From a virus, in IMG/VR virus record IMGVR_UViG_3300048839_000702, positions 1 to 48,717 of that record: a stretch of 48,717 bases of DNA, one strand, 5' to 3'. A program made the position numbers and the translations under genes. Below are positions 2,178 to 23,221 of this stretch, in pieces (within the stretch, counting starts at the first letter, position 1; each line of letters opens with the position of its first letter). The notes beneath the pieces are model-generated. The model saw nothing but the letters and a program-made list of their open reading frames with translations. It was not told where the DNA came from and searched no databases.

Positions 2178-4868
2178 ATGGGCAGATTCACCAAGAAATT
2201 CGGGCCAGTGTACAACAACCTGTGCTCCGACATCTTCAAATTCTGTGAAGTGATGAATTTCACACCATCCTTGCAGCAAAAACAGGCATTGGAAGCAGTC
2301 CAAAGAGCCCAAAACGGCATCGGGAGTAACTGGATAGCGGTGCGCAGCGGCCAGGGGCCAGGTAAGTGCCTGACGGGTGATTCTGAGGTCCTGGATGCCG
2401 TAACTGGTAGGCTATGCACACTGGAGGAGTTGGCAGGCACAGGCCGTAGCATTAGCGTATACTGCATGGACACCGTCACACAGAAAATCAAAACGGCCCC
2501 TGCTCATGCATTTCCCTCCGGGGTGAAGGATTGTGTGGTTATCTCCACCGATGCTGGTCAAAAGATAAGCCTCAGCACAGACCACCCGATGTTCACCCCA
2601 GCCGGTTGGAAATCTGCATGTCTCCTAAAAGAAGGTGATCTGGTAGCAACTCCACGAAGACTGCAAACACCTATTCTTCCGTCGCGGATGACCGACAACG
2701 AAGTCATATTCCTGGCATATATGTCCGCTGATGGTGGTACTGCTGGAGGTAGTTGTGGTTTTACCCAGATGCCTGGGAAGGTACTAGACGAGTTCCTGGA
2801 TGTTACAGTACGGCTTGGTGGATCTACTCGCCGGAAGAAGAGCATGAGCAAGGCCAATGAGTACGGCATTAGTGGGATGCGCCCGTTATCGTCGGTGCAC
2901 GGACTTAACGATTGCCTTGCTAAACACAAACGGATACCTCCGGAAGTCATGGGACTTCCTGATAGACAACTGGCATTGTTTTTGAACAGGTTCTGGGCCT
3001 GCGATGGGTATATCGAAAAGGACGGCCCTGGGACCTGCCTTGCCAGTGAATTGCTGGTGCGAGATATCCAGACAGCACTATTGAGGTTCGGCATACGAAG
3101 CAGGGTCAAGTACAAAGCATGCAGATATGAGAAAGAAGGCAAAGTATTCGATGCTTGGAGATTGACTGTATCCGGAGTCACCAATCTTCTGACCTTCTAC
3201 GCCAACATAGGCATGGTGTTAGGTAAAGAGCCTGCGTGCCAGAGATCATGTAACAAGGCTCTGTGCAAGTCTGAGAACACTAACACAGATATTGTCCCTA
3301 TCCAGATTAAAGAAATGCAGGATATTATTTCTGATTTAGGCGTAGCGAGTAGGAAGGGACAGAAACCAGAAGCTGGGCAGTTGACCAAAGGCAAGATTCG
3401 AAAGATCTGTCGCGGTCGTGATTATTCGTACTTGTCCAGGGACAAGTTCAAAGCATTTTGTGAATTGGCAGATTACCAGGGCAAGTACCGTAAACTGGCC
3501 GAAAATGACATATATTGGGTCCGTGTGCGAAGTACGAAGAGCATAGGACAGATGCCTGTATACGATATGGAGGTCCCTGGTGTTGGTAATTTTGTCTGTA
3601 ACAATCTTATTGTACACAATACGGCCCTGAGTACTATAATCGCTTTTTGGAGAGCTTTCAGGTCTTACAAGAGCCTCACAATCGTCACGGCTCCGACTAT
3701 GAGACAGTGCAAGGACGTGTGGTTGGCTGAAGCCAGGAGAAATCTGGAAAAAGCGGAACCATGGATCAAGGGGTTCATCAAAATCACCAAAACTAGGGTA
3801 GTTATCGCCAAAGATCCTGAATGGACTATCCTCACAGCCACTGCAACCCGGTCAGAGGCAGCCCAAGGGTTCCACCAGGACAATATGACAGTCATCGCAG
3901 AGGAGGCCTCTGGTATTCCAAGGGACTTGATCACCCAATATAAAGGCACTTTATCCAACAGGGATGCTCTTTTCTTGATGATCGGGAACCCCAACGTGCG
4001 GGATTGTGCCTTTTTCGACTGTTTCTATGGCTTGATGAATGACAGGTGGTTTAAGTTGGTGTTCAATGCGGAAGAGTCTCCTCACGTAAATCCGCAACGA
4101 AACAAGGACCTGGAAGAGGAATTCGGTCGGGATTCGGACGTTTACCGCATCCGAGTCCTCGGTGAGTTCCCTCTGGTGGACCCGAATTGTGTCATGGGCT
4201 CTGACGAAGTCATTAAATGCATGGATTCCGCTATCCGGCAACGCGCAATTGGGACAGAGAAGGCAGCGGAATACGGCGGCGGGTTGGTCCGGGCCTTCGG
4301 GCTTGACTTTGCCCGTATGGGCGGCGATGAGAATGTCCTGTCCAGGCGATTGGGCATGGCCCAGACCAAACTGGACATACTTCCTCACTCAGAGCCAATA
4401 AAACTCGTCAGAATGGCCTTTAAGCAGCAAGAACAGATGGGGTGGTCAGATAGTCAGACACTGTACGTTCCGGATGCCACAGGCATGGGACAGGGCGTTT
4501 TATTCTCATTCTATGAGCAGAATAAGCGAGTCCATGAGTTTCATAACCATGGGACACCGTATTCTTCTAAATATGCCAATAAAGTCACCGAGGGATGGTT
4601 CCACATGAGGGGATTGGTCAGGAAATCGAATTGTTACCTGATCCAGGACCAGGTCCTTTTGAGTCAACTGTCAAACAGGCAATATTTCCATAACAAAAAA
4701 GGACAGATTATCGTAGAATCCAAGGATGATTACATCAAAAGAGGCAATGATTCCCCTGACCGGGCAGATGCCACTATTCAGTCGTTCTATGATTGTCCGT
4801 TCGTCCCAGCCAAAGTCAGTTCTCGGGACTCAGGAACCCATCTGGTAGGCACAGGAGCAAATAGATGA
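2178..4868 (+). CDS. terL: Terminase large subunit (TerL) precursor, interrupted by an intein
   Basis: The product is the ATP-driven DNA packaging motor with a headful or cos nuclease. The 896-residue precursor holds a 418-residue intein (residues 64-481), leaving a 478-residue mature protein, a normal TerL length. Walker A is GQGPGK at residues 58-63, completed by Thr482 only after splicing. Walker B is VIAEEASG at about 572-579. C-terminal RNase H-type nuclease acids are likely in GLDFAR (about 707) and in NDSPDRADA (about 858). The start is preceded by AAAG only; the next gene overlaps its stop as ATGA. Without splicing the ATPase site cannot form, so packaging depends on intein excision. 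Confidence 0.95.
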   Translation: MGRFTKKFGPVYNNLCSDIFKFCEVMNFTPSLQQKQALEAVQRAQNGIGSNWIAVRSGQGPGKCLTGDSEVLDAVTGRLCTLEELAGTGRSISVYCMDTVTQKIKTAPAHAFPSGVKDCVVISTDAGQKISLSTDHPMFTPAGWKSACLLKEGDLVATPRRLQTPILPSRMTDNEVIFLAYMSADGGTAGGSCGFTQMPGKVLDEFLDVTVRLGGSTRRKKSMSKANEYGISGMRPLSSVHGLNDCLAKHKRIPPEVMGLPDRQLALFLNRFWACDGYIEKDGPGTCLASELLVRDIQTALLRFGIRSRVKYKACRYEKEGKVFDAWRLTVSGVTNLLTFYANIGMVLGKEPACQRSCNKALCKSENTNTDIVPIQIKEMQDIISDLGVASRKGQKPEAGQLTKGKIRKICRGRDYSYLSRDKFKAFCELADYQGKYRKLAENDIYWVRVRSTKSIGQMPVYDMEVPGVGNFVCNNLIVHNTALSTIIAFWRAFRSYKSLTIVTAPTMRQCKDVWLAEARRNLEKAEPWIKGFIKITKTRVVIAKDPEWTILTATATRSEAAQGFHQDNMTVIAEEASGIPRDLITQYKGTLSNRDALFLMIGNPNVRDCAFFDCFYGLMNDRWFKLVFNAEESPHVNPQRNKDLEEEFGRDSDVYRIRVLGEFPLVDPNCVMGSDEVIKCMDSAIRQRAIGTEKAAEYGGGLVRAFGLDFARMGGDENVLSRRLGMAQTKLDILPHSEPIKLVRMAFKQQEQMGWSDSQTLYVPDATGMGQGVLFSFYEQNKRVHEFHNHGTPYSSKYANKVTEGWFHMRGLVRKSNCYLIQDQVLLSQLSNRQYFHNKKGQIIVESKDDYIKRGNDSPDRADATIQSFYDCPFVPAKVSSRDSGTHLVGTGANR
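2367..3620 (+). mobile_element. LAGLIDADG-type intein inserted in the TerL Walker A motif
   Basis: Residues 64-481 of the TerL precursor form the intein. It begins with Cys (CLTGDSEV, block A), has a block B-like STDHPMF at about residue 133, and ends IVHN with the usual penultimate His and terminal Asn; the +1 extein residue is Thr. Two LAGLIDADG-like dodecapeptides, FLAYMSADGG (about 178) and FLNRFWACDG (about 268), mark a homing endonuclease. The insertion point is between Lys and Thr of the ATP-binding loop, a highly conserved site that favours homing and makes imprecise loss lethal. All splicing residues I can identify are present, so it is probably active. Confidence 0.93.
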
Positions 4869-5059
4869 AATGTGAAAAATGTGGTGGTAACTTGAAAGTG
4901 ACCAATACTTACGAGATACCGCATGGCGCGGTGCATCGCAGGGAGTGCCTAGTGTGTCAGATCGTGTTCGTCACTGAGACTGCAGTACTCGCCGTCAACC
5001 CTGCGTGGGGTCATGGAGCGTCAGCGATTGCAGTACAACGAAAAAAGGAACCCAGGTGA
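4865..5059 (+). CDS. Small zinc-ribbon protein, NrdR N-terminus-like
   Basis: The 64-residue product has CEKCGG at residues 3-8 and RRECLVCQ at about 26-33, a four-cysteine zinc ribbon. The spacing and the RRECLVC..VFVTE run resemble the N-terminal zinc ribbon of the NrdR repressor, but the ATP-cone that NrdR needs is absent. It overlaps the terL stop by four bases (ATGA), so it is translationally coupled to packaging. A role as a DNA- or RNA-binding regulator is inference. Confidence 0.75.
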   Translation: MKCEKCGGNLKVTNTYEIPHGAVHRRECLVCQIVFVTETAVLAVNPAWGHGASAIAVQRKKEPR

Positions 5060-20267: not shown

Positions 20268-22118
20268 TTAACTCGCTGGAATACTGACCGTCCATCCCTT
20301 ACCTGGCAATGTTGTGGTTGCGTCTGTCAAGCCTTGGCCTGTCGGTCTGGGCACATTTGTCAATGTCACGGTGCAATCCCTCGCTGCCGATCCAGCCGCC
20401 TCATTAATCACAAGGGACGCGAAGAAGCTGTTGATCTCGTCCACAGTCAAGTTCGCACCATCAATTGTGATCGTGGTCAGCAGCGTGTGGGCATTGAGTG
20501 CTCCTGTGGTCCAGGCCAGATTGCTGGCTCCATTGATGTTCAGAGTCGTCAATGACGTGGGCAGAGAAGCGTAAGTGCCGATGTTTGTTGTGGGCCAGGG
20601 GAGTAGGAGGACGTTGTCAAATGTGATATCATTAGCTACCCCAACGGATGCCCTACCCAACACCCAAGATGTCGCATCTGCGGTGAAATAGAACTGATAA
20701 TTCCCAGAGGATGCTATATTTCTATAAACAGCCGTTCCCTGGACTTTCAGAGTTCCAGAAGTAACAGTAGGCACTGAAATCGAAAATCTATATTGAGTAC
20801 CTACAACAACAGAAGACGCTGGACTCGTAATTAAGTATATATATGTTCCATCTGTAACAAGTCTAGCCTGTCCACCAGCAACGCTCTGCGTGATATAGTA
20901 CGCTGGATCATCTCCACTAACTGTCCACCCCGTAGGTGTATCTGCGGTCGGCACACCAGTCCACGCATCAAACCCGCCGTTAGCGACTTCATTGGTGATG
21001 GCCTTGACGGAGAACACATTGAATGATACTGACGCTCCATCACTTACTGCCACAACATTGATCTGCCCAGTTGCCGCTTGTGAGAAGAATGTGACGTCCT
21101 GCGTTCCAACGGCAGTGATTGATTTAATGACAGCCCCATCGTTATCTTGAATCTGAACCGTTCCTGATGTCGCTGTGACGTGGATCTGTGCTGTATAGAC
21201 AGAACCTTTTGTAAGAATTGTTTGGCCGGCACTTGTCGCACCGTTCGTTCTCGCTACAGTGATTACTCCACCTGAAACCGAGACAGTACCGCCTGTCTCA
21301 ACCGCAGTCCAATTGGTCAGGGCTGCGGGGAAAGCTCCGTCAACAACCAACTCCGTATCCACAATATGGTCCGTGGGGTCCATATTCGGAAGCGTCAATT
21401 CCTGGAGATTGCTGAACTGCGAGAACTGGCTCACGTCCCCACGGAGGCGGGCACCATCCATGTTGATATAGGTGACAGTTTCGGGATTGCTAAAGACCAG
21501 ATCGACTCGCTGGCCTCTTGTGGCGTAGACGGAGGTTATACCATATAACTTCTGCAACGATACGTTATCATACATAGCCGCAAATGTGGATGTACTGCCC
21601 AATGATATATTCGTTATCCCGGTCGGCAAAGAGATATTGGATGCATACGTATTGGGCGTTCCAATAGCTAACACAATATTATCAGCATACATTGTAGCCC
21701 CATCAGGAACCGTCGTTCCATACCCCACGACAAACGTGCCTCCAGTGATACTGACAGCCGTATAGGTTAATCTATATCTGCCATTTTCAACTGAGATGCC
21801 TTGGTATCCTACGGAATAACTGCCATTATCGGCAACGTTCAACTGCCCACTAGCCACAGATAATATGGAGTTTACTGCTGTCCATCCATTTGTTGCAGAG
21901 TCAAATGTTCCATTTGCCACTCTTTCAGCACCCAACGGATCGACAGAGCCCAGCAGCACACCGTCAGCATAAACGTCACAGGTGCCCTCGTGGGCGATTG
22001 CTAGGTTGATGTAGCCTGAGAGGGTGGCCTCGAAGGACATGATCGCACCGCGTGCGGTAGTGTTGATCAAACCCCTATTTACCAAACCATCATTGATTTT
22101 GGTGCGAGCAATTACCAT
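20268..22118 (-). CDS. Virion appendage protein with carbohydrate-binding-like and leucine-rich modules
   Basis: The 616-residue protein contains at least three modules of the form NG.FD....GW, followed by beta-rich runs with W, T, V and G (about residues 66, 260, 370). These look like carbohydrate-binding or jelly-roll domains. A leucine-rich-like stretch lies near 190-250 and another at about 535-590 (LTTLNINGASNL and similar). It is placed between the connector proteins and the tail tube, an unusual position for an adhesin, so it may decorate the capsid or neck. It overlaps the next gene start closely. Confidence 0.7.
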   Translation of the reverse strand: MVIARTKINDGLVNRGLINTTARGAIMSFEATLSGYINLAIAHEGTCDVYADGVLLGSVDPLGAERVANGTFDSATNGWTAVNSILSVASGQLNVADNGSYSVGYQGISVENGRYRLTYTAVSITGGTFVVGYGTTVPDGATMYADNIVLAIGTPNTYASNISLPTGITNISLGSTSTFAAMYDNVSLQKLYGITSVYATRGQRVDLVFSNPETVTYINMDGARLRGDVSQFSQFSNLQELTLPNMDPTDHIVDTELVVDGAFPAALTNWTAVETGGTVSVSGGVITVARTNGATSAGQTILTKGSVYTAQIHVTATSGTVQIQDNDGAVIKSITAVGTQDVTFFSQAATGQINVVAVSDGASVSFNVFSVKAITNEVANGGFDAWTGVPTADTPTGWTVSGDDPAYYITQSVAGGQARLVTDGTYIYLITSPASSVVVGTQYRFSISVPTVTSGTLKVQGTAVYRNIASSGNYQFYFTADATSWVLGRASVGVANDITFDNVLLLPWPTTNIGTYASLPTSLTTLNINGASNLAWTTGALNAHTLLTTITIDGANLTVDEINSFFASLVINEAAGSAARDCTVTLTNVPRPTGQGLTDATTTLPGKGWTVSIPAS

Positions 22119-23221
22119 TAGTTTACCCTGAACTGCTTAGTTCGTGTCTCATCTTCGGCATCCGTACTCATCGGAAGGTCGCATACCAAGATTAGGTCAG
22201 TTATGTCGAAGTCTGCCTGATCTGATGGCCATGTGACGTTGTCAAGTGACTCTTCCATGTACAAGTAGATATTGCCATCCGTGCTGGTAACGTCTGCTGT
22301 GACTGTTAAGGCACCTTTTAGTCCCTCGTATTTAGAACTGATGTTGCTGTACACTGCTCCTTCTGCTTGAGCTGAAGCAACTATCGTACCTCCTGCTTTA
22401 AGGAAGCTGGTGTCTTCTGTTGTATCAGCTTGGTAAGTCAGAACTCCGCTTCGTATGAGCCAACCATAATACTCTACTGAGATGCGTGCCCCATCGTCAT
22501 ACGCAAGTGTCTGGTCTGTAGAGTTCAGTATTCTAAATCTAAAGTATTTGGATAGCATTATCTTTGACCTTCCATTAAGGGCTACAGCTATGGCTAATTC
22601 TTCTGCATCAACGGCAATGGTGTCTACGACAGTGTCTATAGTCGTAATCAGACCATCAGTAGTAGCATGAAGACCAGCAGCGGTTCCAGCCGCATCCGGG
22701 ACTGTGGTGTTGGCTCCGTCAGTGCCTCTCATAGCTTCTCCATCTAGTCCAGCGACATCAACGGCAATGGTGTCTACGACAGTGTCTATAGTCGTAATCA
22801 GACCATCAGTGGTAGCATGAAGACCAGCAGCAGTTCCAGCCGCATCCGGGACTACTGTGTTGGCTCCGTCAGTGCCTCTCATATACCGATTTTGAAGAGA
22901 GAAGGACCCGATGACAGAAACAATCACTTGACTGTCTATGGTTTCGTCTGGGGCGAGAATGACTTGGTAGTCAGAGCCAGCAGCCCAGTCATCACCGTCA
23001 TTGTTGGACGTGTCGATGTCTACAGCATGGAGGCCTACAACTGAGTCAAGGGGGCTTGTCATAGTTATGCCGCTGGGCGTAAAAGCTGCGTTGTCCTTGT
23101 ACACTTTAACGTCAGCCGCCTCAAACGCAGATGAAGGGGCGACAGCCGCACCGTTGACGTTATTGGTCGTGAATGTGATGCGTACTGTATTGCCTAGGGT
23201 GTAGTCACCTATATAATTCAT
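22118..23221 (-). CDS. Structural protein with an internal duplicated module
   Basis: The 367-residue protein starts with a beta domain (about 1-110), then has two nearly identical copies of a module with MRGTDGANT, PDAAGTAAGLHATTDG and ITTIDTVVDTIAVD, about 50 residues each. The C-terminal part (about 215-367) is a further beta domain. MRGTDGANT motifs recur in phage virion proteins near head-tail connectors and fibres. The repeat may form a trimeric helical stalk. Its DNA is duplicated at 95 percent or better. Confidence 0.75.
   Translation of the reverse strand: MNYIGDYTLGNTVRITFTTNNVNGAAVAPSSAFEAADVKVYKDNAAFTPSGITMTSPLDSVVGLHAVDIDTSNNDGDDWAAGSDYQVILAPDETIDSQVIVSVIGSFSLQNRYMRGTDGANTVVPDAAGTAAGLHATTDGLITTIDTVVDTIAVDVAGLDGEAMRGTDGANTTVPDAAGTAAGLHATTDGLITTIDTVVDTIAVDAEELAIAVALNGRSKIMLSKYFRFRILNSTDQTLAYDDGARISVEYYGWLIRSGVLTYQADTTEDTSFLKAGGTIVASAQAEGAVYSNISSKYEGLKGALTVTADVTSTDGNIYLYMEESLDNVTWPSDQADFDITDLILVCDLPMSTDAEDETRTKQFRVN
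22606..22883 (-). repeat. 128-bp tandem duplication inside a virion gene
   Basis: 22606-22733 and 22756-22883 are direct repeats with a 150-bp period. I count about five mismatches in 128 bases. Most differences leave the encoded module nearly unchanged. It represents a recent in-frame module duplication. Confidence 0.92.

Follow-up and report, generated by a model that had tools for sequence, protein, structure and literature searches.

Organization of the terminase locus

The window, by which we mean the whole virus record of 48,717 bases, contains on its plus strand an ORF of 896 aa (2178–4868) without internal stop, which divides into 63 residues of N-extein, 418 of intein and 415 of C-extein (Table 1). 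The intein occupies ORF residues 64–481, in frame, and splits the P-loop of the terminase large subunit (TerL) exactly between Lys and Thr, SGQGPGK/T: the AAG codon for Lys ends at 2366 and the TGC codon for Cys1 begins at 2367, whilst the AAT codon for Asn418 ends at 3620 and the ACG codon for Thr+1 begins at 3621. A first-pass annotation, made from the sequence, had placed an intein at 2367–3620 between these two P-loop residues; the codons at both junctions show its coordinates to be exact and bear out the insertion site. The 478 residues that it had calculated for the spliced product are also correct (63 + 415), and correspond to the large terminase obtained when the exteins are joined without the intein.

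Table 1. Coordinates of the intein-bearing terminase gene and its parts (window positions)
Feature	Position	Strand
N-extein of large terminase, 63 aa, ends SGQGPGK of Walker A	2178–2366	+
Intein, 418 aa, class 1 (Cys1, His73, Asp400, His417, Asn418)	2367–3620	+
N-terminal splicing (HINT) half, residues ~1–97, block B S70-T-D-H73	2367–2657 (boundary approximate)	+
Two-motif LAGLIDADG endonuclease, residues ~98–300	2658–3266 (boundary approximate)	+
LAGLIDADG motif acids	Asp122, 2730–2732; Asp213, 3003–3005	+
Region between endonuclease and C-terminal splicing half, residues ~301–380	3267–3506	+
C-terminal splicing half, blocks F and G, residues ~381–418, ends VHN	3507–3620	+
C-extein: rest of TerL ATPase and nuclease domain	3621–4868	+

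Both exteins are intact. The C-extein matched the PHROG terminase large subunit profile phrog_2 (6.7e-24), and it carries in its ATPase part the +1 Thr, a Walker B-like VIAEEA and GNPN, and in its nuclease domain LDFAR, PDATGMG and SPDRAD, motifs that are conserved in alignments with TerL relatives. The profile match, together with these ATPase and nuclease motifs, identifies the host protein as the large terminase of a tailed phage. As the window also encodes portal, major head and tail proteins as well as a DNA polymerase, a helicase and a methylase, it is the genome of a tailed phage, in full or in large part. The GC content of the intein, 0.489, is close to the 0.497 found over the remainder of the window, and its codon use departs only slightly from the typical; neither was taken to indicate a recent arrival.

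Several minor features of the window were recorded alongside. Between the plus-strand TerL gene and the plus-strand portal gene lie ∼23 kb of minus-strand genes (4868–27622), including those for tail and major head proteins. A 64 aa ORF (4865–5059) that overlaps the TerL stop codon contains two CxxC pairs, resembling a small zinc ribbon. The ORF at 22118–23221 holds a tandem 150-base unit (22606–22883, 96 % matches), and the left end of the record (1–225) carries CATGCCCTACCC-type tandem repeats.

Splicing and endonuclease domains of the intein

The intein matched the Pfam families Intein_splicing (PF14890, 5.7e-18) and LAGLIDADG_3 (PF14528, 1.6e-13), both over the curated cut-offs. With the NCBIfam models it scored just past the cut-off for intein_Nterm and under it for intein_Cterm; its strongest NCBIfam alignment was to an intein-bearing DnaB (PRK07773), and its nearest solved relatives by sequence were DnaB splicing domains. 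An AlphaFold model, for which the input was an alignment of 16 inteins (the window's and those of the loci from our scans only), had a pLDDT of 91.2 and a pTM of 0.90, with its lowest-confidence stretch (residues 331–334) lying between the endonuclease and the C-terminal splicing half. Along its full length the model matched solved intein-endonucleases, the TliVMA intein 7qss (residues 1–418; Z 35.6, rmsd 3.4, 373 aligned) and 2cw7 (Z 33.6, rmsd 2.9, 348 aligned); it also matched the stand-alone splicing domains of Ssp DnaB and Mtu RecA (1mi8, 2imz; Z ∼22). Together with the PF14890 match, these comparisons predict a HINT splicing fold. The intein thus shares this fold with DnaB and RecA inteins (4o1r, 1mi8, 2imz) but differs from them in host protein, and those three structures are splicing domains without an endonuclease.

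The residue set of a class 1 intein (C1, H73, H417, N418 and T+1) is complete in the window; C1, H73 in block B, D400 at F:4, H417 and N418 are, moreover, invariant in the 16 aligned inteins. The Cys1 and the terminal His-Asn named in the first-pass annotation are therefore in place, as are its two LAGLIDADG motifs, each with its acid. The TDH block B that it described holds for T-D-H itself and for His73, but at B:7 the usual Thr is Ser70. In addition, the His position of block F, F:13, is Gly407. Positions 4 and 13 of block F are less conserved assisting residues (Mills et al., 2014; PMC4031507), and within this intein family F:13 may be G, H, Q, K, A or S, whilst B:7 is Ser or Thr. As both positions vary, neither residue is by itself a sign of decay, and to judge from the alignment the two would call for mild caution only. 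At two other loci, L034 (4001–5029) and L039 (4001–5242), the endonuclease of a TerL P-loop intein has decayed: the first LAGLIDADG region is missing from L034, and both motif acids are gone from L039.

Empty and occupied sites among terminase relatives

Relatives of the window's TerL were taken from IMG/VR. In the same collection a scan with the single intein sequence gave no matches, and one with an alignment as query did. An uninterrupted GK-T was found in 12 TerL loci (L004, L005, L008 and L011–L019), as would be expected of an in-frame insertion into a conserved protein; across the window's family the intein is absent from 12 of 15 distinct TerLs. Homologous inteins occupy the window's codon in L006 and L007, which are near-identical, and in L020, and the fragmentary locus L009 does not extend over the insertion site. 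Occupancy changed at least three times on the extein tree. We found no intein-free counterpart that was nearly identical to the window; over the 40 flanking bases, the closest intein-free site agreed at 68 %. A search of genome contigs with the TerL alignment gave one match only (L101), distant, terminase-like and intein-free. The L006 and L007 inteins hold too few differences for a selection test.

The trees of inteins and host genes disagree. In the TerL tree L006, L007, L008 and L020 form a clade (100/100) with the window outside it, and joining the window with L020 is rejected by the extein data (p-AU 2e-58), whereas in the intein tree the window and L020 are sisters (99/91). Identities run the same way: 44 % between the window and L020 inteins vs 32 % between those of L006 and L020, as against 39 % and 57 %, respectively, for the exteins. 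L020 (IMG/VR contig 3300025433_000001) thus resembles the window in codon, TerL family, intein (∼44 % identity) and the Gly at F:13, but its TerL, only 39–40 % identical, is placed by the TerL tree on its other main branch. Lateral movement of TerL P-loop inteins is likely from these comparisons; we grade it no higher because holding the L006 and L020 inteins together gave a p-AU of 0.0755, which is not rejected at 0.05.

A wider clade of nine inteins that includes the window's (100/99) takes in inteins from a second TerL family, inserted at GK/T or GK/S. Those at L021, L025, L026, L027, L034 and L036 are 33–38 % identical to the window intein, but their host TerL, as tested with L021, resembles that of Vibrio siphoviruses. 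It is conceivable, at somewhat less than an even chance, that the window intein is a member of a single lineage, specialized for the P-loop of TerL, whose transfers at one and the same Lys/Thr codon pair have spanned two or more terminase families. The presence of related inteins in both TerL families would offer a means of testing how such elements pass between distant packaging genes.

Proposed function and alternative explanations

With its anatomy, predicted fold, catalytic residues and empty and filled alleles established, we consider it almost certain that the element is an intein of class 1 that carries a LAGLIDADG homing endonuclease and interrupts the large terminase of a tailed phage between the Lys and Thr of its P-loop. 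That the window copy splices, cuts and homes is our inference. Until the intein has excised itself, the 896 aa precursor would lack a functional P-loop. In the expected reaction Cys1 would form a thioester, Thr+1 would take over the N-extein and Asn418, aided by His417, would cyclize, resulting in the ligated terminase. The endonuclease would in turn cut intein-free TerL genes of co-infecting phages at the same P-loop-coding DNA, and the intein would be copied into them.

The alternative that carries some weight, although we think it unlikely, is that the intein splices but that its endonuclease no longer cuts, in which case it would be inherited vertically and have no mobility. The transfer test does miss the 0.05 level, and endonuclease decay has taken place in the relatives L034 and L039; the window copy, however, keeps both LAGLIDADG acids, contrary to what a non-cutting enzyme would suggest, and the grouping of the window and L020 inteins against their host genes argues against vertical inheritance.

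A failure to splice, leaving the terminase inactive or its function to another gene, is highly improbable. The Gly in place of the block F His and the Ser at B:7 could be taken to favour it, but L020 has the same two residues and yet an intact TerL, the window retains all of C1, H73, D400, H417, N418 and Thr+1 together with its extein motifs, and no second TerL was found among the larger window ORFs scanned, contrary to replacement by another gene. Nor do we give much credence to a regulatory role, in which conditional splicing would time DNA packaging. The P-loop site does tie ATPase activity to splicing, and a modulating role for such inteins has been discussed (Kelley et al., 2016; PMC5050341); against this, the TerL inteins tested in that study spliced readily, no regulatory feature was found for the window intein, and most distinct TerLs of its family manage without one.

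Comparison with known terminase inteins

TerL is the commonest intein host in mycobacteriophages, and the terminase inteins reported there are confined to its ATPase domain (Kelley et al., 2016; PMC5050341). Within this set, the TerL1-a inteins separate the invariant P-loop Lys from the Thr, a placement that the authors term a 'classic' one for the P-loop; of the TerL inteins at other sites, five were shown to splice and two of these also cut intein-free DNA (PMC5050341). The first-pass statement that terminase inteins are known accords with this work, but its suggestion that the exact P-loop insertion adds interest does not, because TerL1-a inteins at the same Lys/Thr were described in 2016 and the site is not novel. 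Its reading of a homing-type intein in the TerL P-loop stands, on the strength of domains, fold, empty alleles and same-site homologues, without the special status given to the site.

The window element is of the same kind and in the same place as TerL1-a, in another phage group: the two share the TerL host gene and the position between the P-loop Lys and Thr, whereas the window's host belongs to another terminase family (phrog_2/phrog_5902-like). At E 1e-5 the tblastn matches of the window intein included no TerL intein of a mycobacteriophage, which suggests that the two are not close in sequence. An environmental phage lineage, in which one and the same codon is empty in some members and filled in others, is added to the known P-loop TerL inteins.

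A separate observation concerns L036 (5255–7357), the TerL of which already has a P-loop intein and contains besides it another intein-like insert, small and lacking an endonuclease, at residues ∼490–630 of the C-extein. This insert starts with CFVGNT and ends with VFVHN, followed by SKDCSDSLAG, and it lies in the C-terminal, nuclease part of TerL, a location that may be unusual compared with the ATPase-domain inteins of PMC5050341.
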